NCBI GenBank assembly: GCA_913044215.1
Contig: CAJWOT010000010.1
Location: 1 to 35,531, forward strand
Length of the DNA: 35,531 nt
Source: an uncultured Rhodospirillaceae bacterium
GTDB taxonomy: Bacteria; Pseudomonadota; Alphaproteobacteria; UBA8366; GCA-2717185
Direction: 5' to 3'
Positions 1,123 to 15,302 of this stretch are shown here, piece by piece; the stretch's first letter is position 1, and every line of letters starts with the position of its first letter. A program made the translations under genes and the position numbers. Under the pieces are notes generated by a model that worked only from the letters and a program-made list of their open reading frames with translations, had not been told where the DNA came from and searched no databases.

Positions 1123-1641
1123 ATGTCGGCTCGAAGCGATTTCATTTCTGGCCTCGTGATGCTCGCCTGCACGGCGATATTCTACATGGCCGCCCTGGAG
1201 ATCGAAGAAGATCCGTTTGGCGTCGGCATGGAGCCGTACGTCTTTCCGATTGCAATTTGCTATGTGCTGGGCGGCATAACGTTGCTGCTACTGGCGCGTT
1301 CGGCGGTCGGCGCATTTCGCGAAGGTCTCTTCGCTGGCGACTTACAGGAAATCCGCCTGTTCTTCGGTTGGGTTCTGCCTATGGCCGCGATCGCCTTCGC
1401 GTATCTGGGTCTCATCAACCTGTTTCAGTATCTACTGCCGACGATCATCATACTTGCCGCGACGTTGGCGCTGTTCGGCAATCGCGGCGTGAAATGGCTG
1501 GTCACAATTCCGACGATTTCGGGGCTGGTCTACTACGTGACTTTTTTCGGGGTTTTCCGTCTGCTGGAGCCGACCGGCATTCTGATCGAATACGATAATT
1601 TTTACATTTTCGGTGCGATGCGAAAGTTCATCGGCGTTTAG
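1123..1641 (+). CDS. tctB: TctB-type small membrane subunit of the tricarboxylate transporter
   Basis: Small integral membrane subunit (172 aa) of the TTT transporter, acting with TctA in the inner membrane. It has about four hydrophobic segments (near residues 7-25, 40-60, 80-100 and 105-145), and an early EEDPFGVGMEPYVFPI segment resembles the conserved loop after the first helix in TctB proteins. It sits between tctC and tctA, the standard order, 24 bases before tctA. The ATG at 1123 has only a weak ribosome-binding site, which fits a low-level small subunit. TctB proteins are poorly conserved, so the assignment relies on size, topology and position. Confidence 0.85.
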   Translation: MSARSDFISGLVMLACTAIFYMAALEIEEDPFGVGMEPYVFPIAICYVLGGITLLLLARSAVGAFREGLFAGDLQEIRLFFGWVLPMAAIAFAYLGLINLFQYLLPTIIILAATLALFGNRGVKWLVTIPTISGLVYYVTFFGVFRLLEPTGILIEYDNFYIFGAMRKFIGV

Positions 1642-1665
1642 GCGTACGCGGGGACAAGGGGCGAC

Positions 1666-3183
1666 ATGGACCATCCGATCATAGACGGTCTGATCACGCT
1701 GTTTACCAGCGGATGGGCAGTATTCTACGCCGTTCTTGGCACGGCAATCGGGTTGCTCGCCGGTGCGACGCCGGGACTGACCGCATCGGCTGCGATCTCC
1801 ATGATCATTCCGTTGTCGTTCTACATGGAGCCGCTATCGGCGCTGATATTCGTCTATACGATTGGCAAGGCGGCAAGTTTCGGCGGCTCGATCCCGGCGA
1901 TCCTGTTCAACACGCCCGGCACCCCACAGGCGTCGGCGACGCAGATCGAGGGCTATCCTCTGACCCGTCAGGGAAAGCAGGGTAAGGCGCTCAAGATGGC
2001 AGTGCTGGCCTCTGCCCTTGGCGATACCTTCTCCGAATGTTTGCTGATTTTCGGCGCGGCCTTCATCGCGATCTACACCGCGCGAATGGGACCGCCGGAA
2101 ATCTTCGCAGTCTATTGCACCGCTTTTGTTATCATTGGCAGTGTGATCGGGACGTCGATGATCCGCGGCTTGATCAGCACGATGCTCGGCATTCTCTTGG
2201 CGATTATCGGGCTCGATCCGATCAGCTCCATGCCGCGCCTGACCTTCGACGTCAATTATCTGGAAACGGGCATTGGTCTCGTACCGGTTCTGCTCGGCGT
2301 TTTCGTTGTTTCCGAAATATTCGTGCAAATCGCCGACCGCGGCGCACTCGGGGCAGAGCGCATGCTGTCGAAACGCTCGGACGTGCCGCAGGACAATTAT
2401 GTGACCTGGCTGGACTTCCGCCGCTGTCTGCCGGTGATGGCAAAATCGACGGGCATGGGCACGATTATCGGGATGTTGCCCGGCGTCGGTGCCTCGGCAG
2501 CATGCTTCGTCGCCTATGCGGAGGCGAAGCGGTCCGCGAAGCCGGACGACAAGTGGAACGAAGGCGAGATCAAGGGTGTCGCGGCCGCGGAGGCCGCGAA
2601 CAATTCCGTCTCCGGTGCCAATATCATCCCGCTCCTGACATTGGGTATTCCAGGCAGCGTGGCCGCCGCGCTGTTGGGCGGCGTGTTCCTCATTCACGGC
2701 ATGAATATCGGTCCGAAAATCTTCGAAACCGACACGGAGATCATCTACGGCTTGTTCGCGTCCGGTCTGCTTTGCATCGCGACCTATTTCGTGATGGGCT
2801 ATTGGGGCAGCGGCATTATCGGCAAGATCATCGCGAAGGTGCCGGTCCGGGTGATCTACCCGTTCATTTTCATCACGTCGATCGTCGCGGTCTACGCGCT
2901 GCGCAACACGCTATTCGATGTCGGCATGATGTTTGTCTTCGGATTCGTCGGTTACTTCTTCAAAAAGTTCGACTACTCCCTGCCAGCCTTCATCATCGCC
3001 TTCATTCTGGGGCCGGGCGCCGAACGCGCCCTGCGTCAGGCGCTGCTCCTCTCCGAGGACGGCGTGATGATTTTCGCGGAGCGGCCACTCGCGATCTTCT
3101 TTATCTTCCTCGCCGTTCTAGTGATCGGCGTCAGGATCTATCAGTCAATGCACACGGCCCCGAATACCGCTAAGGCAACGTAA
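1666..3183 (+). CDS. tctA: TctA-type large membrane subunit of the tricarboxylate transporter
   Basis: Large permease subunit (505 aa) that carries substrate across the inner membrane, probably driven by an ion gradient. Family hallmarks are visible: an N-terminal GLLAGATPGLTASAAISMI segment, the GSIPAILFNTPGTPQASAT loop, and a second copy of the glycine/proline pattern near the middle (IIGMLPGVGASAACFVAYAEAK, then NIIPLLTLGIPGS), reflecting the internal duplication of TctA. About 11-12 hydrophobic stretches are present and length is normal (about 500). Its last 14 bases overlap the 3' end of the convergent oxidoreductase gene, so there is no room for a separate terminator between them. Confidence 0.94.
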   Translation: MDHPIIDGLITLFTSGWAVFYAVLGTAIGLLAGATPGLTASAAISMIIPLSFYMEPLSALIFVYTIGKAASFGGSIPAILFNTPGTPQASATQIEGYPLTRQGKQGKALKMAVLASALGDTFSECLLIFGAAFIAIYTARMGPPEIFAVYCTAFVIIGSVIGTSMIRGLISTMLGILLAIIGLDPISSMPRLTFDVNYLETGIGLVPVLLGVFVVSEIFVQIADRGALGAERMLSKRSDVPQDNYVTWLDFRRCLPVMAKSTGMGTIIGMLPGVGASAACFVAYAEAKRSAKPDDKWNEGEIKGVAAAEAANNSVSGANIIPLLTLGIPGSVAAALLGGVFLIHGMNIGPKIFETDTEIIYGLFASGLLCIATYFVMGYWGSGIIGKIIAKVPVRVIYPFIFITSIVAVYALRNTLFDVGMMFVFGFVGYFFKKFDYSLPAFIIAFILGPGAERALRQALLLSEDGVMIFAERPLAIFFIFLAVLVIGVRIYQSMHTAPNTAKAT

Positions 3184-4222
3184 CCGCGACGCCTTCCCGC
3201 ACCGAACGGGTTACCGCGTCCGTCCAGTCCATATATTTCACACCGGTCACGAAGTCCGTATGGGTGACTTGCTCCTGGCCGCGTATCGCGCTGACGAATT
3301 CTTCCTCTACGCGCCAACCGCCCGCCTTCGACGGATCGACCGTCACTTCGCTGAGGCCTTCGTCGCCGCGGCCTCCGGCGAAAAGCGTGAACTCGCCGGA
3401 CTTATCCATTTGCAGCAGCAATGTCCCTTCCGTGCCGAAGAGGTAGATGTCGGCATTCGAGGGCGCGTGACCGGAGACGCTAGAAATGCTGAAGCGCATC
3501 TGGCCGCCCGCTTCCAGTTTGCCGATGACGTCGAGATGATCGGGGATCGCCATCGGCCGGCGGCAGCCGTTCTCGTCCTTGCGGTGCGGTACGACAGCTT
3601 GACCGATCGCGTGTACCGTCTTGGCCGGCCCGACCCAGCGCATCATGCATTCGTACCAGATGCCCATCGCCATGATGTTGTTGCCCGACAGGTCGCGGTC
3701 GTGCCGCCAATGGACCGGTGTGTCGTAGTTAGGGAAATTGCTGCCCGCCGTGACGCGCGCGTCGAGCGAGATCAGGTCACCGATGGCGCCGTCGCTGATC
3801 AGACCGATGATCGTGTTGTCGAACTTCAACGAATGCGGGGCTGTGACGATCTGGGCGACCTTGGTCGGGTTGCGTCGCGAGGCGGCCAGCATCATGCGCG
3901 CTTCCGCCGCATTCATCGCCATGCGCGCTTCGCAGAGCACGTGCTTGCCAGCGTCCAATGCCGCGATCGTCATGGGGGCATGCATGTAGGGCCAGGTGCC
4001 GATGCACACCGCGTCGATGGATTGGTCGTTTACGACGTCCATCCAGTCATCAGTGACCCGCGCGACTCCGAACTCGTCCGCGATCCTTTGGCCGGATTCG
4101 ACCGTTCGGTTCGCGACGATATCGAGACTGATATTGTCCTGCGCCAAGAAGCCCGGAATATGGCGCGACCGTGTGTTGCCGCCCGCTCCAATAAGACCCA
4201 CACGCAAGGTTTCGTTTGCCAT
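3170..4222 (-). CDS. Gfo/Idh/MocA family oxidoreductase with altered catalytic motif
   Basis: Predicted cytosolic NAD(P)-dependent dehydrogenase-like protein (350 aa). Residues 9-18 (GLIGAGGNTR) form the Rossmann dinucleotide-binding loop, and the C-terminal half fits the family's alpha/beta domain. The usual active-site motif CEKPMA reads CEARMA (residues 97-102), so the lysine is alanine. In the second motif region, the aspartate and histidine normally used for hydride transfer appear absent (NNIMAMGIWYECMMRW). It may be a diverged dehydrogenase or a non-canonical member. ATG at 4222 has a GGAGGGG ribosome-binding site. It overlaps the tctA 3' end on the opposite strand and follows the YbjN-like gene by 95 bases. 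Substrate unknown. Confidence 0.88.
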   Translation of the reverse strand: MANETLRVGLIGAGGNTRSRHIPGFLAQDNISLDIVANRTVESGQRIADEFGVARVTDDWMDVVNDQSIDAVCIGTWPYMHAPMTIAALDAGKHVLCEARMAMNAAEARMMLAASRRNPTKVAQIVTAPHSLKFDNTIIGLISDGAIGDLISLDARVTAGSNFPNYDTPVHWRHDRDLSGNNIMAMGIWYECMMRWVGPAKTVHAIGQAVVPHRKDENGCRRPMAIPDHLDVIGKLEAGGQMRFSISSVSGHAPSNADIYLFGTEGTLLLQMDKSGEFTLFAGGRGDEGLSEVTVDPSKAGGWRVEEEFVSAIRGQEQVTHTDFVTGVKYMDWTDAVTRSVREGVAVTLP

Positions 4223-4317
4223 TTCGGCCCCTCCAAATCACTGATGTTTTGCCAGGGGGCGGATACTGGCACGCATCCTCCGCCAGTTCAAAGCTGTTCA
4301 CAGGGGTACCGAGGGCC

Positions 4318-4857
4318 CTAGATCGCGAGGCCTTTTTCCAGGAGTTTCTCGATCAACTCACGCTCGATGATGCCGGAACTGTCGCCACCGCCATAGGCGA
4401 TGCCGCCGGAGCTGTAGGTCTTGCCGATGGTTCGGGCAAGATTCACCGTTTGGCCAATACCGGACAGAAATTCAGCATCGCTCAGCGACTTAAACATGTG
4501 GAGATATGCCGCCCAAACAATGTCGCGGGCAATGGCGTAACGCGCATCCAATGTGGTGTCGAAATTCGCCTGCATCAGCCGCCGGAACAATGTCTCGGGG
4601 ATGCTCTCGGTCTTGGTGATACCCACGAGAATGCGCATCCGGTTCGCCCGTGTATCGGTTACTACAAAGACGGGAATGCCTTCGATGCGGAACCGCCACT
4701 GTCCGTCCGCTGGCCGAGTGACGGTGTATCCGACCGCATCGATCAGATCGTTCATGCGGGCGATCGTCATACCGTCCTCGTTGTCAGATCGATCCGCCAG
4801 CGCCGGACCATTGACGCAAACCAGCAACGAGACAAGAACAGCCACAATTCGAAACAT
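4318..4857 (-). CDS. Exported YbjN/type III chaperone-fold-like protein
   Basis: A 179-residue protein starting at 4857; an in-frame upstream ATG at 4938 exists but would bury the signal peptide. The 4857 start has a GAGG box about 8 bases upstream, and residues 1-21 make a typical Sec signal peptide (MFRIVAVLVSLLVC, then an ALA cleavage site). The mature part begins with an acidic segment, then a pattern (MNDLIDAVGYTV, WRFRIEGIPVFVV, RILVGI, MQANFD) that resembles YbjN/TY-Chap sensory-chaperone folds. The C-terminus is glycine-rich, then helical. A periplasmic location is predicted. Function unknown; the fold assignment is from pattern only. Confidence 0.75.
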   Translation of the reverse strand: MFRIVAVLVSLLVCVNGPALADRSDNEDGMTIARMNDLIDAVGYTVTRPADGQWRFRIEGIPVFVVTDTRANRMRILVGITKTESIPETLFRRLMQANFDTTLDARYAIARDIVWAAYLHMFKSLSDAEFLSGIGQTVNLARTIGKTYSSGGIAYGGGDSSGIIERELIEKLLEKGLAI

Positions 4858-5048
4858 TGGAACCTCATTCGCCAGGAGTATCCGCTGCGATAGCACAGAT
4901 GGGGACACAGGGCCGCGCAACTTTCGGTGAACGGGCAACCGGTTTCGGTCCCTTGCATAGCATTAACGGTTTGTAAAATAAGCCTTTGTCACTGTTTCGC
5001 CGTGCCGCGAGACCGCTGAAACGGGTGGTGGCGGTGTCGGCACTTGAT

Positions 5049-5054
5049 TATAAT
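5049..5054 (+). promoter_or_regulatory. Possible -10 box for the S41 protease gene
   Basis: A perfect TATAAT, preceded by a TG dinucleotide one base further away than an ideal extended -10. No good -35 is seen at the right distance. It lies 44 bases before the chosen start codon. Weak evidence. Confidence 0.3.
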
Positions 5055-5097
5055 CCGCGCACTTTACCGGACGAACCATTGTTGGACCGCTTGCCGC

Positions 5098-6357
5098 ATG
5101 AACGTTATTCGCGCTGCTCTGTTCCTTCTTCTGACCGGGTTGGTTGTCGGTTGCGGTATCGCGCAGCATTCGCCTGGTCCAGAAGCCCGTGTCGCGGCCA
5201 AGTCTCTGGCAGAGCAGGTAGGCACATCGGAGAATGGTTCAGGAGCGCAGTTTCAGCTCTTTGCCAAAGTCTTCGATCAAGTCCGCACCCTTTATGTTGA
5301 CGAGGTCGACGATGCGAAGCTGCTGACGGCGGCAGCCGACGGTATGCGCAAGGCTTTTCCCGAACCGGCAAGCGCGGCGGAGGATAAGCTGGTCGGCGCT
5401 GCGATCGAAGGCATGCTGGCGGCGCTCGATCCATACAGTGCTTATCTGAACAATCGCAGCTATAGCGCGGTGCGGGACCAGACACGGGGCGAGTTCGGGG
5501 GGATCGGATTACAGGTCACCAAAGAAGGCGACTTCATCAAAGTCATAAGCCCCATCGACGGGACCCCTGCCGCGCAAGCAGGCGTAAAAGCGGGAGATTT
5601 GATCACCCATGCCGATGGACACCCGCTGGTTGGCATGACGCTTCGGGCGTCCGTGTTGCGGCTGCGGGGCCCGGCGGGCAGTGAGGTGTTGCTCACGGTG
5701 AAACGGGCGGATCTGGAGCCCTTCGGAGTCGCAATCGTCCGAGCCCGCATCCACATCAAGGCGGTGCGTTGGTCGCTCCAGGACGGTATCGGCTATATCC
5801 GTATCTCCAGTTTTACCGAGAAAGCGACTCGGGAGTTCGTTGAAGCGGTCGAGACCATGCGCAGCCAGGGCGGCGATACGCTGCTGGGCCTCGTGCTTGA
5901 TCTGCGGAATAATCCGGGCGGCTTGCTTGAGCAATCTGTGTTGATTTCCGACGAGCTGCTGGAGCGCGGCACGATCGTTTCCACGCGGAGCCGGGTCGAT
6001 CAGCGGTTTTTCAACGCGCGTGCCGGCGATATCGCAGTGGGGCTGCCCATCGTCGTTTTGGTGAATGACGGTTCCGCCTCGGCCGCGGAGATTTTGGCCG
6101 GCGCATTGAAAGACCATGGCCGCGCAATTCTCGTCGGCGGCCGGACGTTCGGGAAAGGGTCGGTGCAGACCATTATTCCGTTTGAGAATAACGACGGGTT
6201 GAAGCTGACGACCGCGCGCTACTACACACCATCCGGCAAATCGGTTGATGGCGGCATCGAGCCCAACATACTCGTGAAGCAGGATCCCGACCGTGAGGGC
6301 GACGAGCAACGCGAGCGGGCCAACCTCGAATTGTCGCGCTTGGCAACGGCCCGTTAG
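5098..6357 (+). CDS. Lipoprotein C-terminal processing peptidase (S41 family, CtpA-like)
   Basis: Serine protease that trims or degrades exported proteins from the C-terminus. Starting at 5098 (419 aa) gives a lipoprotein signal ending in LVVGC, lipidated at Cys19; the in-frame start at 5044 would push that signal inward. Order: helical N-terminal region, PDZ domain about residues 132-202 (GGIGLQV to VKR), then the S41 catalytic domain. Catalytic serine is in NDGSASAAEI (Ser326) and lysine in TFGKGSVQ (Lys353). It is predicted to sit on a membrane facing the periplasm. It is a different gene from the ctpA that alphaproteobacteria usually keep near envC and rppH, so it may be a paralogue. Its end overlaps the convergent kinase gene by 4 bases. 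Confidence 0.92.
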   Translation: MNVIRAALFLLLTGLVVGCGIAQHSPGPEARVAAKSLAEQVGTSENGSGAQFQLFAKVFDQVRTLYVDEVDDAKLLTAAADGMRKAFPEPASAAEDKLVGAAIEGMLAALDPYSAYLNNRSYSAVRDQTRGEFGGIGLQVTKEGDFIKVISPIDGTPAAQAGVKAGDLITHADGHPLVGMTLRASVLRLRGPAGSEVLLTVKRADLEPFGVAIVRARIHIKAVRWSLQDGIGYIRISSFTEKATREFVEAVETMRSQGGDTLLGLVLDLRNNPGGLLEQSVLISDELLERGTIVSTRSRVDQRFFNARAGDIAVGLPIVVLVNDGSASAAEILAGALKDHGRAILVGGRTFGKGSVQTIIPFENNDGLKLTTARYYTPSGKSVDGGIEPNILVKQDPDREGDEQRERANLELSRLATAR

Positions 6358-7277
6358 GTCGTTTTTTCAGCCGCACCCAGCTGAACCATCACAGGGTCGA
6401 CGTCGGACGTGACGGGGATACCGATCTGTGCTCCCTCCCTGGTACAGGCGAGCGCCGCAGCGGCACTGGCCCGGCGTGCGGCGTCCACAATATCGAGGCC
6501 GGCATCCAATCCCGCGGCCAGATAGCCGACATAGGTGTCACCGGCGCCGGTCGTGTCGGTGGGCGTGACGTTTAGCGCCGGGATCGCGTAGCCGCCGGAC
6601 GGACCGTGCAACACCGCGCCTGCTTTTCCCAAGGTCAGAACGCAGGTCAGCCCAAAGCGTTCGGCGAGTTGCCCGGGGATGTCTTCCGGTGTGTGTGTAT
6701 CGATACCCGTCGCGGCTGCGATCGCCGCGCCTTCGATTTCGTTGACGATCAGATAATCGAGCCGCTCCAGCGCCGACGCGGGTACCGGTGCGGCAGGTGC
6801 CACATTCAGGGCCGTCCGAGCGCCACGCTCACGGGCGCGTTCGAGCAGCGCCCAGTTTTCTGCCAGGTCCACTTCCATCTGCAGCAACAGAAGCGTGTCC
6901 GGGCCGAGCAGCGCGTCGGGCACCTGCGCGGCCCGTGTCGACAGGTTCGCCCCGCTCGCGACGACGATCGAATTTTCACAGTCCTTGTCGACACTGATTG
7001 CCGCGCAGGCGGTGGGGGCGTCGACCGTCGCGACGGCATTCGTTTCGACGCCTGAGTTGCGCATGGTATCGACCGCTAGCGCAGCGAAGCCGTCAGCACC
7101 GACGCAGCCGACCATGGTGGTTTTCGCGCCGGCCCGGGCGGCGGCGGCGGCCTGGTTAGCCCCCTTACCGCCGGGGGAGGCGAGATAGCCGGGGCACAGT
7201 ACGGTTTCGCCGGGTGCGGGCTGGTGATCGACGCGGAAGGTCAAATCAACATTGATGGATCCGAAGACGACGATCAT
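6354..7277 (-). CDS. rbsK: Ribokinase-like PfkB-family sugar kinase
   Basis: Cytosolic kinase (307 aa) that phosphorylates a sugar or nucleoside using ATP. The PfkB signatures are present: SPGGKGANQA at residues 34-43 (substrate-binding motif), Asn179-Glu180 in the magnesium/ATP region, and DTTGAGDTYVGY starting at residue 241, with catalytic base Asp247. Length matches RbsK. ATG at 7277 has a perfect AGGAGG and overlaps the stop of the upstream MFS gene (ATGA-type), implying translational coupling. Other PfkB kinases such as nucleoside kinases are alternatives, but the N-terminal GSINVDL and the GGKGANQA motif favour ribokinase. Confidence 0.87.
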   Translation of the reverse strand: MIVVFGSINVDLTFRVDHQPAPGETVLCPGYLASPGGKGANQAAAAARAGAKTTMVGCVGADGFAALAVDTMRNSGVETNAVATVDAPTACAAISVDKDCENSIVVASGANLSTRAAQVPDALLGPDTLLLLQMEVDLAENWALLERARERGARTALNVAPAAPVPASALERLDYLIVNEIEGAAIAAATGIDTHTPEDIPGQLAERFGLTCVLTLGKAGAVLHGPSGGYAIPALNVTPTDTTGAGDTYVGYLAAGLDAGLDIVDAARRASAAAALACTREGAQIGIPVTSDVDPVMVQLGAAEKTT

Positions 7278-8854
7278 TGCAACCTCCTGCGAAAACGGAA
7301 TGGCGCGCCCTTGCGCGTGATGGCCATGATCCAGGCGGGTACCAGGCCGAATAGGGTGACGATGCCCAGGGCGGCAAAGGCGTCCTGGAATCCCAGTGTG
7401 CTCGCCTGGGCGTAGATGACGTCGCCGAGAAAATGCAGCGCGCCCGGTTCCCGCACCGTTTGCGGCACACCGGCTTCGGTCAGCAAGCGGATCAAGGCTT
7501 CGCGCATTTCCTGGCTCGTGTGGTGCGCGGCGGTCTGCATGGCTGCGAAGGCGTCACCATGGAATGGGATGCGCAGTTCCAGGAAGACGACCAGGCCGTT
7601 CGTGCCGATCACCGCGCCGAGCTGCCGCATCAGATTGACCGCGCCGGAGCCCTGGTTCAACAGTTCGGGCGGCAATGATCGCAAAGCGGCCGCGTTGGTG
7701 ACCGGCCGTGTGAAGGCGGTGCCGGCGCGAATGAAGATGGTGAAAGCGACGATTGTCCAGAACGGTGTGTTCACGTCCGCCGTGGCCAATGCCAGGAAGG
7801 CGATCCCGAATGCGATCAGCCCGATATAGATCAGCACATGCGGTGGCCAGCTATCCGCCAACCGTCCGGTCAGCGGATACATGATCAGCAATGATAGGCC
7901 GCCCGGCATCATGATGAGGCCGGCATCGAAGGCGGTGTAGTTCTGAATCTGCTGGACGAACAGGGGGACAAGAAATGTCGATGACAGAAAGGCGCAGCCG
8001 GCGAAGAAGGCGATCGCGCTGGCGGCGACGAACTGAATGTTGCGGAACAGCGCCAGATTGATGAACGGGGCATCGCCGTAGATCTGGCGGAACGCGAAAC
8101 CGAGTGTCGCGGCGCCGCCGAGCGTGAACAGCCCGATGATCTCGTTTGAACTCCAGCCGAGCCGCTGCCCGTAGCTGAAGCCCAGTAGCAATCCGCTCAT
8201 CGCGATGCAGAAGAAGACGAAGCCGATGAAGTCGAACCGCGGGAGGCGCTTCGGCATGGCCCGGCTCGGCATGAACAGCAGTCCCATGAGCAGCGCCACG
8301 CCGGTGCTCGGCAGAGTTAGCAGGAAGACGTAGCGCCAGTTGAAGAACTCGATCGCCAGCCCGCCCATCATTGGCCCCAGGGTGGGCGCCAGTACCATGC
8401 CCATGCTGTAGAAGCCCATCGAACTGCCTTTGCGGTTCGTCGGGAAGACGCTGAAGGTCACGGTCATGCCCAGCGGCATGATGATTCCCGACGATGCGCC
8501 CTGCAGCACGCGGCCGATCATCAGCGTCTCGGTGTTGTGGGCAAGCCCGCTCATCGCCGCACCGATGATGAAAACGAGGAGCGCCCCGGTATAGGTCTTC
8601 CTTTCGCCGAAGGACTCGATCAGCCAACTGCTGATCAGCATGCCGGCCGTAGTCGCGGCGAAATAGCCGGTCGACAGCAATTGTGCCTGGTCGCGCCCGA
8701 TACCGAACGCGCCCATGATGTCCGGAAAGGCGACATTGACCGTTGAACTGGCCAGGATCGCCGTCATACCGCCGATCATGCCGGTGATCGCCGCCAGCCA
8801 TTTATAGGCGGGACCGTAACGGTCGAAGAGGGTTTCGATACTTTCGGCGCGCAC
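7274..8854 (-). CDS. DHA2-type MFS transporter (EmrB/QacA family)
   Basis: Inner-membrane major facilitator protein (526 aa), predicted 14 transmembrane segments, of the proton-driven multidrug efflux family. Hallmarks: ILASSTVNVAFPDI (residues 34-47, motif D1 region), SWLIESFGERKTYTGA (motif A), and GRVLQGASSGIIMPLGMT (motif B/C region). The start is GTG at 8854 with a weak ribosome-binding site; no better in-frame start exists before the first helix. It overlaps the downstream ribokinase by 4 bases. Efflux is the family norm, but coupling with a sugar kinase leaves open export or import of a sugar-like compound. Confidence 0.88.
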   Translation of the reverse strand: MRAESIETLFDRYGPAYKWLAAITGMIGGMTAILASSTVNVAFPDIMGAFGIGRDQAQLLSTGYFAATTAGMLISSWLIESFGERKTYTGALLVFIIGAAMSGLAHNTETLMIGRVLQGASSGIIMPLGMTVTFSVFPTNRKGSSMGFYSMGMVLAPTLGPMMGGLAIEFFNWRYVFLLTLPSTGVALLMGLLFMPSRAMPKRLPRFDFIGFVFFCIAMSGLLLGFSYGQRLGWSSNEIIGLFTLGGAATLGFAFRQIYGDAPFINLALFRNIQFVAASAIAFFAGCAFLSSTFLVPLFVQQIQNYTAFDAGLIMMPGGLSLLIMYPLTGRLADSWPPHVLIYIGLIAFGIAFLALATADVNTPFWTIVAFTIFIRAGTAFTRPVTNAAALRSLPPELLNQGSGAVNLMRQLGAVIGTNGLVVFLELRIPFHGDAFAAMQTAAHHTSQEMREALIRLLTEAGVPQTVREPGALHFLGDVIYAQASTLGFQDAFAALGIVTLFGLVPAWIMAITRKGAPFRFRRRLQ

Positions 8855-8869
8855 AACCGCACTCGTTCA

Positions 8870-8919
8870 TTGACTGGCCGCCGTACGACGCAGGCGTCAC
8901 ACAACCTGGCGGCCGTCAA
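8870..8919 (-). repeat. Nested inverted repeat downstream of the PEP-mutase-family pseudogene
   Basis: Outer arms 8870-8882 (TTGACTGGCCGCC) and 8908-8919 (GGCGGCCGTCAA) pair over 12 bp with one bulged T. Inside, 8887-8891 (GACGC) and 8894-8898 (GCGTC) form a second tight hairpin with a 2-base loop. There is no T-run, so it is not a classic terminator; it could stabilise the 3' end of the minus-strand transcript. It also occupies the leader of the MFS gene, so an attenuator role is possible. Confidence 0.5.
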
Positions 8920-8933
8920 TTATATCGTGAGTG

Positions 8934-9767
8934 TCACCCCCGCATATAGCCGGCGAATTCTGGTGTCGGCATCGAAGAGTCGACGGAGCTGAAGGTACCG
9001 TTTTCCTTCGCTTCGGTCGCCGCGGCGACGACACCGCTCATCGCCGCGCGGTAGAGCGACGTGGCAAGGCTAATCCGCTTGACGCCAGCACCGGCGAGCT
9101 CGGCGACGGTAAAGGACTTTCCCGGGATTCCGACCATGAAATTGAACGGTTTCGACAGCGCGTCGCAGACCGTCTTCACCGCCGCGATGTCGGGCAGGCC
9201 CGGCGCCATCAACACATCGGCGCCGGCGGCTTCATAGGCTTTCAGACGTGCGATGGTGTCGTCCAGATCCGGGTTGCCGCGGATGAAGTTCTCGCTGCGC
9301 CCGGTGAGCGTGAAGGCGAAACCGACGGCGCGCGCCGCGTCGGCGGACGCCGCGATCCGTGCGACCGCGCTGTCGGGATCGTAGAAGCCCAGATCGGGAT
9401 CGCCGGAAAAACCTTCGATCGAGCAACCGACGAGACCGGCCTCTGCGGCGCGCTGCACGGTCTTGGCCGCAGCGCTCGGTTCGTGCCCGAAACCGTTCTC
9501 CAAATCCGCCGACACCGGTAAATCCGTCGCCTCGACCACCGCCCGCGCATGGGTCAACGCTTCCTCCCGCGTCACCCCGCCGTCGCGCCAGCCCAATGTG
9601 CCGGCGAACCCGCCGCTCGACGTTGCCAGCGCCTCGAATCACATGCCGGTCAGAATTCGGGCGGTTCCCGCATCGAACGCATTCGCGATGATGAAAGAGT
9701 CGCTGTTTGCGTGTAAGGCACGGAAGCGGTCGGCCTTTTCGGATTGACTAGGCGTCGTGTTTGTCAT
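8934..9767 (-). pseudogene. PEP mutase/isocitrate lyase family enzyme interrupted by an in-frame TGA
   Basis: Read from ATG at 9767 (AAGGAG ribosome-binding site at 9775-9780), the frame encodes a 277-position ICL/PEPM-superfamily protein. The N-terminus ends with FIIANAFDAGTARILTGM, then a TGA at 9639-9641 (codon 43), then FEALATSSGGFAGTLGWRDG and the rest of the barrel, including SADLENGFGHEP. In relatives the stop position is a conserved glycine (GMGFEAL), so GGA to TGA is the likely change. Everything downstream stays in frame. The 3' part could start at a TTG at 9596 but would lack the first strand and helix of the barrel. Functional members cleave or form C-C or C-P bonds in 2-methylisocitrate, oxaloacetate or phosphonopyruvate. 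Probable pseudogene, unless the base is a sequencing error. Confidence 0.85.
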
Positions 9768-9774
9768 CGATCGT

Positions 9775-9780
9775 CTCCTT
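9775..9780 (-). promoter_or_regulatory. Ribosome-binding site fixing the start of the PEP-mutase-family gene
   Basis: AAGGAG on the minus strand, 7 bases before the ATG at 9767. It shows that the original start is upstream of the TGA, not at the internal TTG at 9596. Confidence 0.7.
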
Positions 9781-9913
9781 CTTCACTGGCGCAGGTTATG
9801 CGAGGCCAGTCCGGTGATGTCGAGTGCCAAAACCGTCGGTCGAATGAGGCCATTGCCCTTGCACGGGTCACCTGTAATGCTGGCTCGGTGAGTGGGAAAG
9901 GCAAGAGGCCGCA

Positions 9914-10978
9914 ATGCGTAGGGAACCCGTAACCGATGCCAGCGTCTGGACCGGCGCCGAGCTTGATGCTGACCGGTCCTGGGAATACGTGCTGAGCGAC
10001 GCGCACCGTGCCGAGCTCGATGCCGCGCTTGGCGCGGTCAAGGCGCAGGGGCTCGGCATTCCGGCGGTTTCGAAAGACAGTTTCCCGCTGCCGAGTCTGG
10101 GTCCTGTGCTTACAAGTGTCGGTGACGATCTGCGGGACGGGCGGGGCTTCGCGTTGCTGCGGCGCTTTCCGGTCGAAGGTTACGAGAACGATGATATCGC
10201 CCTGATGTATTGGGGGCTTTGCAGTCATATCGGGATGGGCATCACGCAGAACGGCGAGGGCGGATTCATCCACTACGTCACCGATGGTGCACTGCGGCCC
10301 AGACAGGGCAAGCGCGGCGTCGGGTTTCCCAAGGAATCGAAGCTGCATGTCGATCTGATGGATATCGTCACCTTGCTGTGCGTGCAGCAGGCGCCCGACG
10401 ATCCGCCAAGCCGCGTGGCCAGCTCGACGGCGATCTACAACCGGGTCTTGGCGGAACGCCCGGAGGCGCTGCCGCGGCTTTTTGAGGGCTTCGAGTGGGG
10501 CCGGCAGGATGAGCATGGCGACGGCGAGACGCCGGCTTCCGGCTATAAGGTGCCGTTCTTCAGCGAAAAGGACGGGCATGTCTCCTGTCAGTATAATCGC
10601 AGTTGGATCAACAACGGTTTGAGTTACAAGGGCGCTGAAATGCCGGATTCCGACGCGGCGCTTCTCGACTATGTCGATTCGGTGGCCGACGACGTCCGGT
10701 TCGAGTTCCCTTTCCACACAGGCGACGTACAGTTCTGCAGCAACTACACCGTGTTGCACGGGCGCGCGGCCCATGCCGTTGTTCCGGAGGAGGACCGCAA
10801 ACGGCTCCTGATGCGGATCTGGCTGGACATGCCGGACTTTCGCAAATTTTCCGACGAAGCGATCGTGCGCTACGGCATTGGCCGTCACGGTCAGCTCGGC
10901 TGGACGGCCGAAGAAATGCTGGCCGGCGTCAATGATGTAACGCGGCCCCGTCGCGCCGACGGGGCGCTCCAGCTTTAG
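9914..10978 (+). CDS. TauD/TfdA-family Fe(II)/2-oxoglutarate dioxygenase
   Basis: Cytosolic non-haem iron oxygenase (354 aa) that would couple 2-oxoglutarate decarboxylation to hydroxylation of a small organic substrate. The metal triad is visible: His145-x-Asp147 in ESKLHVDLMD and distal His282 in YTVLHGRAAH; Arg297 or Arg301 (DRKRLLMRIW) would bind 2-oxoglutarate. Length is nearer the longer TauD/TfdA members than TauD itself. ATG at 9914 follows AAGAGG by about 6 bases. It starts a plus-strand operon with two EamA transporters; only 15 bases separate it from the next gene, which is in the same frame. Substrate cannot be inferred; the second dioxygenase in this window (14274) is not a close copy. 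Confidence 0.88.
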   Translation: MRREPVTDASVWTGAELDADRSWEYVLSDAHRAELDAALGAVKAQGLGIPAVSKDSFPLPSLGPVLTSVGDDLRDGRGFALLRRFPVEGYENDDIALMYWGLCSHIGMGITQNGEGGFIHYVTDGALRPRQGKRGVGFPKESKLHVDLMDIVTLLCVQQAPDDPPSRVASSTAIYNRVLAERPEALPRLFEGFEWGRQDEHGDGETPASGYKVPFFSEKDGHVSCQYNRSWINNGLSYKGAEMPDSDAALLDYVDSVADDVRFEFPFHTGDVQFCSNYTVLHGRAAHAVVPEEDRKRLLMRIWLDMPDFRKFSDEAIVRYGIGRHGQLGWTAEEMLAGVNDVTRPRRADGALQL

Positions 10979-10993
10979 AACCGAAAACGCCAC

Positions 10994-11866
10994 TTGTTCG
11001 AACATTTCCTCCCGGTCGTCTACTCGCTGGGCGCAGGCTTCCTGTTCGCGCTGGGGGCGCATCTGCTCAGCTTCGGCATGCGCTACAGCGACCCGCAGAC
11101 GGGCGCGTTGATCGACATCGGCGCCTCCACGGTGCTGTTCTGGCTGCTGCTGCCCTTCTATATCGAATGGCACTACTGGCTGACGGCGGCGACGGCCGTG
11201 TTCGTCGCCGTCGGATGTTTCCGGCCCTTCGTATCAGCCAGTCTCGGCGCCTGGGGCGTGCGCTTTCTCGGACCAACCTTGACCAGCACGGTCGGCGCCA
11301 CGACGCCGCTGTTCGGCGCCGCGTTCGGTGTGTTTCTCCTGGGCGAGCATCTGACATTGCCCATCACAGCGGGGACCGCCGCGATAATCTTTGGGATGGC
11401 ATTGCTGTCCTATCGTGGGCAGGTCAAGACCGCCTGGCCGCTTTGGGCGCTGTTGTTTCCGCTCGGTGCCGCGATCGTGCGGGCGGGCGCGAATACCTTC
11501 AACAAAATTGGACTGGAGATGGTCCCCAGTCCCTTCTTTGCTGGCCTGGTTACCTTTACGATCTCGTTCTTTCTGGCGTTGAGCGTGCACGGAGTCCGGC
11601 GCCAACCGGTCCCGAATTTCCGGACAACGCCAGGCCTTTGGTGGTTTGCTGCCGCGGGGGTCGTGCATGCCATCGCGGTGACCTTGGTCAATCTCGCCCT
11701 GCAGATCAGTCAGATAATTATTGTGTTGCCGCTGATCTCTACCTTTCCGCTCTTTTCCCTGGCACTCACACTGTTCGTGTTCAAGAGGGAAGTACTCGAC
11801 CGGCGGACGATCATCGCAACCCTGCTGGTCGTCCCTGGCGTTTTGCTGATCGCCGCCTCAAGATGA
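10994..11866 (+). CDS. EamA/DMT-family transporter (first of a tandem pair)
   Basis: Inner-membrane drug/metabolite transporter (290 aa) with about ten hydrophobic helices in two EamA halves (about residues 1-135 and 150-288). The first reads VVYSLGAGFLFALGAHLLS and the second opens at WALLFPLGAAIVRAGAN. The start must be TTG at 10994: the preceding dioxygenase stop is in the same frame 18 bases upstream, no ATG or GTG lies between, and the next ATG (residue 29) would remove most of the first helix. The ribosome-binding site is poor, suggesting translation coupled to the dioxygenase. Likely moves the substrate or product of that enzyme; direction unknown. Confidence 0.85.
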   Translation: MFEHFLPVVYSLGAGFLFALGAHLLSFGMRYSDPQTGALIDIGASTVLFWLLLPFYIEWHYWLTAATAVFVAVGCFRPFVSASLGAWGVRFLGPTLTSTVGATTPLFGAAFGVFLLGEHLTLPITAGTAAIIFGMALLSYRGQVKTAWPLWALLFPLGAAIVRAGANTFNKIGLEMVPSPFFAGLVTFTISFFLALSVHGVRRQPVPNFRTTPGLWWFAAAGVVHAIAVTLVNLALQISQIIIVLPLISTFPLFSLALTLFVFKREVLDRRTIIATLLVVPGVLLIAASR

Positions 11867-13367: not shown

Positions 13368-13813
13368 TCAGGGGCCGGGCGGTGTCACTGCCGCCGCTGC
13401 GGGGATGCGGCCTTCCTTGACAGCGTGGCAAGCTGCAAGACCGCTTTCGGTTTGTTTCAAGACGGGCGCTTCTTGGCGGCACCGGTCCTCGACGAAGGGG
13501 CAGCGCGGGTGGAAGGCGCAGCCGCTTGGCGGATTGATCGGATTGGGCACTTCGCCGCGCACAGGGGTGCGGTCGCGGCCCGACATCTCCAGGTCGGGAA
13601 TCGTGTCGAGCAACAGCCGCGTATAGAGGTACTGCGGTTTGGTGAACAGGTCGCGCGCGGTTGCAACTTCGCAAAGCCGTCCCAGATACATGACGCCGAT
13701 CCGGTCCGACACATTGTAGACGACGGCGAGATTGTGACTGATGAACAGGCAGGTCAGGCCCAGCCGTTGTTGCAGGCAGCCGCAACCGCGATGGCGGTGA
13801 GTGTTTTCCGCAT
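13368..13813 (-). pseudogene. Deletion scar: exported-protein start fused to the C-terminal end of an oligopeptide ABC ATPase
   Basis: From ATG at 13813 the frame reads MRKTLTAIAVAAA, a standard signal-peptide start, but stops at 13754-13756 after 19 codons. In another frame, from about 13775 down to the stop at 13368-13370, the sequence is the end of an OppD/OppF/DppF-type ATPase: LQQRLGLTCLFISHN (H-loop), then VSDRIGVMYLGRLCE, and the family's C-terminal cysteine segment CAFHPRCPFVEDRC. The Walker A, Q-loop, signature and Walker B portions are absent. The simplest reading is a deletion joining the start of a substrate-binding protein to the end of the last ATPase gene, removing the permeases and most of both ATPases. 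The junction lies near 13770-13780. A misassembly would look the same. Confidence 0.8.
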
Positions 13814-15192: not shown

Positions 15193-15302
15193 TGTCATCC
15201 CGGACAAGGCGCCTTGCGCCGCAAATCCGGGCTGAACGGCCATCAGGACCGTTCAGGGGAAACGGTATGGGTTGCATAGCGGCTGTGAAGGCCGGGGTGA
15301 CA
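15193..15302. repeat. About 110-bp element with inverted-repeat ends and internal palindromes
   Basis: TGTCATCCCGG at 15193-15203 is mirrored by CCGGGGTGACA at 15292-15302 (10 of 11 positions). Inside are a perfect palindrome AAGGCGCCTT (15206-15215) and an 8-bp hairpin CTGAACGG/CCGTTCAG (15232-15239 and 15249-15256, 9-base loop). It encodes no protein and lies between two converging genes. Short dispersed elements with this kind of TGTCATCCCGG end are common in alphaproteobacterial genomes. No second copy is present in this window. Confidence 0.6.

Follow-up and report, generated by a model that had tools for sequence, protein, structure and literature searches.

The minus strand of the window (the whole stretch of 35,531 nucleotides that was analyzed) carries a gene related to PEP mutase and isocitrate lyase whose reading frame is interrupted by a TGA codon. 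This arrangement raises the question of whether the TGA is decoded as an amino acid, is bypassed by starting translation farther downstream, marks an inactivated gene, or is an artifact of genome assembly. Overall, the evidence points to a pseudogene of an ordinary kind as the probable answer, although the chance that it is an assembly artifact is real.

The gene occupies positions 8934 to 9767 and begins with an ATG at 9767-9765, with an AAGGAG box upstream (GAAGAAGGAGACGATCG). After 42 codons, the frame meets the TGA at codon 43 (9641-9639), which is flanked by TGM and FEALATSS, and then stays open for another 234 codons until the TGA at 8936-8934. This layout, described in a first-pass annotation, was confirmed on the sequence. 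A chance open frame is excluded, because homology covers both sides of the codon-43 stop. Other long frames at 9232-9642 and 9764-11173 on the minus strand and at 8931-9521 on the plus strand were taken as chance overlaps; a Pfam search with the frame at 9764-11173 yielded no match.

When codon 43 is read through, residues 15-252 of the protein match Pfam family PF13714 with 231.7 bits (E 1.2e-68), against a curated cut-off of 31.5 bits, and the match spans profile positions 1-238 of 240. The closest solved structure is PDB 4lsb, annotated "lyase/mutase" (E 2e-70). With 4lsb and the uncharacterized proteins of PF13714, the read-through gene shares homology over the whole length, as well as the DLE.GFG and SIE motifs; it differs from those proteins in its codon-43 stop and in no longer having R60, D119, or an aromatic side chain at position 261. 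Methylisocitrate lyase (PrpB) and PEP mutase (PepM) belong to the same superfamily, but their curated models are matched only weakly, far below the cut-offs (83.8 bits versus an NCBIfam cut-off of 354.4 for PrpB; 47.6 versus 319.6 bits for PepM). PEP mutase is marked by the motif EDKx5NS (PMC12723261), which is absent here: the corresponding site reads SIEGFSGDPDL in the window gene and SIEDATGDKDK in the consensus of its relatives. A Glu115-type residue of methylisocitrate lyase has been named (PMC7609661), and by analogy the Glu that precedes D119 is probably its counterpart.

The window comes from a draft, MAG-like assembly (G000) of 4.75 Mb in 525 contigs, which is 93% complete and 5% contaminated. 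Its closest relative, G001, is also a MAG, and is collinear with window positions 1377-10845 over 9,472 bases, with 97% nucleotide identity and one 3-base indel. The G001 orthologue has a whole frame with GGA at codon 43, and its protein is 97% identical. In tblastn searches with X at codon 43, residues 1-277 matched G001 at 97% and residues 4-277 matched a more distant genome, G003, at 74%. The order TauD-PEPM-MFS-pfkB-S41 is kept, and the gene is whole in G001, G002, and G003. The frame in the window is thus broken where its orthologues are whole, as in a pseudogene. No second intact copy was found in G000, in which the next-best matches are approximately 31% identical.

Comparison of the neighborhood with these genomes yielded three further observations. 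At approximately window positions 13664-13775, G001 carries about 4.9 kb of extra sequence (L152, contig C285:2991-7896), with approximately 112 bases repeated alongside, a pattern such as a mobile element or a local duplication leaves. At 15193-15231 lies a dispersed repeat of approximately 40 bases, of the type GTCATCCCGGAC...AATCCGGG, with many matches in G001, G002, and G003 at 85-95%. Finally, a 353-codon frame on the plus strand (3260-4321), antisense to an oxidoreductase gene on the minus strand (3170-4222), is most likely not a gene, because it contains a stop in G001 and has a dN/dS of 2.3 in comparison with that genome.

We assembled 87 relatives of the interrupted gene at 60% identity or more, 86 of which cover codon 43. 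All 86 have glycine at this position, encoded by all four glycine codons; TGA and cysteine never occur. The stop therefore does fall on a conserved glycine, as the first-pass annotation had proposed, and the single G-to-T change that it invoked is enough, given the GGA of G001. The annotation had also asked whether relatives might carry TGA at this position, as recoding would imply, and none does.

Recoding, in which the TGA would be read as selenocysteine, glycine, or another amino acid so that the whole enzyme is made, could account for the 234 codons that remain open beyond the TGA. Moreover, the sister genomes G001 and G003 contain tRNA-Sec genes above the gathering score. However, with glycine in all 86 covering relatives, recoding is rejected. 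G000 also encodes RF2, and TGA terminates several conserved genes of the window. In-frame stops elsewhere in G000 include TAA and TAG, so the phenomenon is not confined to TGA, and a read-through product would still be without R60 and D119. We therefore regard it as extremely improbable that TGA is recoded here, and equally so that the lineage decodes this one TGA as an amino acid depending on its context and still makes the full-length enzyme. The tRNA-Sec loci themselves lie at C581:996-1087 in G001 (L145) and at C14:15501-15592 in G003 (L146). None was detected above the gathering score in the 93% complete G000 assembly, which would mean either that selenocysteine use has been lost or that the assembly has a gap.

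Translation might instead resume beyond the stop. The TTG at codon 58 (9594-9596) opens a frame of 220 codons, the only long one available for reinitiation, and superfamily models still match its product weakly. However, inspection by eye revealed no ribosome-binding site at the usual distance before this TTG, and none of the relatives examined is built as a TTG-started short form. The earlier statement that reinitiation here would remove the first barrel strand is correct, and the conserved ATSSG segment would be lost as well; the near-invariant D119 would still be replaced by glycine. It is consequently very improbable that a functional 220-residue protein is made from this start.

The first-pass annotation called the gene "otherwise intact", which holds for the frame only, since the protein carries changes confined to G000 at residues that are near-invariant in relatives or invariant in the outgroups. 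When changes were polarized by using G002 and G003 as outgroups, seven amino-acid changes in the gene (including the stop) fell on the branch leading to G000, and the G001 branch had none. Six of them lie in columns that do not vary among the outgroups and G001: G43stop, R60W, L106R, D119G, F261S, and T264S. These changes are of mixed type, with three transitions and three transversions. Comparison with the relatives indicates how strongly some of these sites are conserved. Codon 60 (9588-9590) is TGG, encoding Trp, at a position where all 86 covering relatives have Arg or Lys. Codon 119 (9411-9413), within the IED/SIED motif, is GGT, encoding Gly, where 86 of 87 relatives have Asp. Codon 261 (8985-8987) is TCC, encoding Ser, where Tyr or Phe is found in all 86 relatives that cover it.

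The rate of amino-acid change on the G000 branch is more than four times as high in this gene as in neighboring genes. Of 230 invariant columns in this gene, 6 carry a change found only in G000, compared with 24 of 5,859 across the remaining conserved genes of the window (p 0.0008; p 0.004 when the stop is omitted), although the test is post hoc, in that the gene was chosen for its stop, and is open to local base error. Those other conserved genes contain no internal stops. The raised rate suggests that constraint on the gene is relaxed, and relaxed constraint makes recent inactivation the best reading.

We therefore favor, as the probable explanation from sequence comparison, that an ordinary enzyme gene of the isocitrate lyase/PEP mutase family, inherited vertically, has recently been inactivated. 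In this scheme, selection on the gene would have been relaxed in the G000 lineage, one base change would have turned codon 43 into a stop, and further changes would have built up at residues that the enzyme normally keeps; we infer this order of events. Translation would begin at 9767 and end once 42 residues have been added, and presumably no active enzyme would be made. The gene resembles single-nonsense bacterial pseudogenes in having a lone internal stop where relatives have a whole gene. The stop itself, the glycine of the relatives, the one-base difference from G001, and the changes seen only in G000 are all apparent in the sequences, and the base is presumably real in the organism. Against inactivation, the stop is seen in a single draft, MAG-like genome, no frameshift or deletion has accumulated, the upstream region with the ribosome-binding site is nearly unchanged (3 of 146 bases differ), as a young event would lead one to expect, and the assembly has a general excess, relative to G001, of first- and second-position changes and of transversions, such as low-level base error gives.

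This last point bears on the possibility that the TGA, and perhaps other odd codons, are artifacts of a consensus base error or a strain mixture, and that the gene is intact in the organism. Assembly commonly produces false pseudogenes, in a manner that depends on coverage (PMC11017572), and the window gene likewise lies in a draft, fragmented assembly, with its 525 contigs and 5% contamination. First- and second-position changes number 59 in G000 versus 24 in G001, whereas third-position changes are about equal (81 versus 91), and transversions are more frequent in G000. Similarly, across conserved genes at window positions 5044-34152, polarized amino-acid changes number 43 in G000 versus 19 in G001, with equal synonymous change. 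Such an excess would follow from consensus errors at scattered sites, and equally from weaker selection combined with a different spectrum of mutations.

However, in-frame stops are rare among G000 domain matches. We sampled five Pfam families, amounting to an estimated 60,000 codons, as a stand-in for the genome-wide rate. Stops were present in 0 of 113 matches to PF00106, 0 of 61 to PF00005, 1 of 30 to PF00528 (a TGA), and 2 of 75 to PF07690 (one with TAA and one weak match with two TAG codons); among 13 matches to PF13714, the only one was the window gene itself. The affected matches elsewhere are a BPD_transp_1 match with TGA (C338:4073-4444) and two MFS matches, one with TAA (C33:18015-19016) and the weak one with two TAG codons (C4:18073-18432). 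Because approximately 2% of single changes in the window gene create a stop, counting all sampled stops as errors would still imply only about 0.1% error per base. A compatible rate would hardly place a stop and several changes at conserved sites into one 0.8-kb gene. In this respect, the additional conserved-site changes distinguish the gene from a lone assembly error and favor real loss, without proving it; a cluster of local errors in the gene is conceivable. Taken together, we consider an assembly artifact possible, and a serious alternative to recent inactivation.

Nothing here represents a new way of reading the genetic code; an inactivated gene is most likely, and a base error is possible. 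The finding is an ordinary one, and general understanding is unchanged by either reading. If the TGA is an artifact, the locus would be an example of draft assemblies creating false pseudogenes. If it is real, it would reflect the recent loss of one enzyme in one uncultured alphaproteobacterial lineage, with its gene neighborhood kept.
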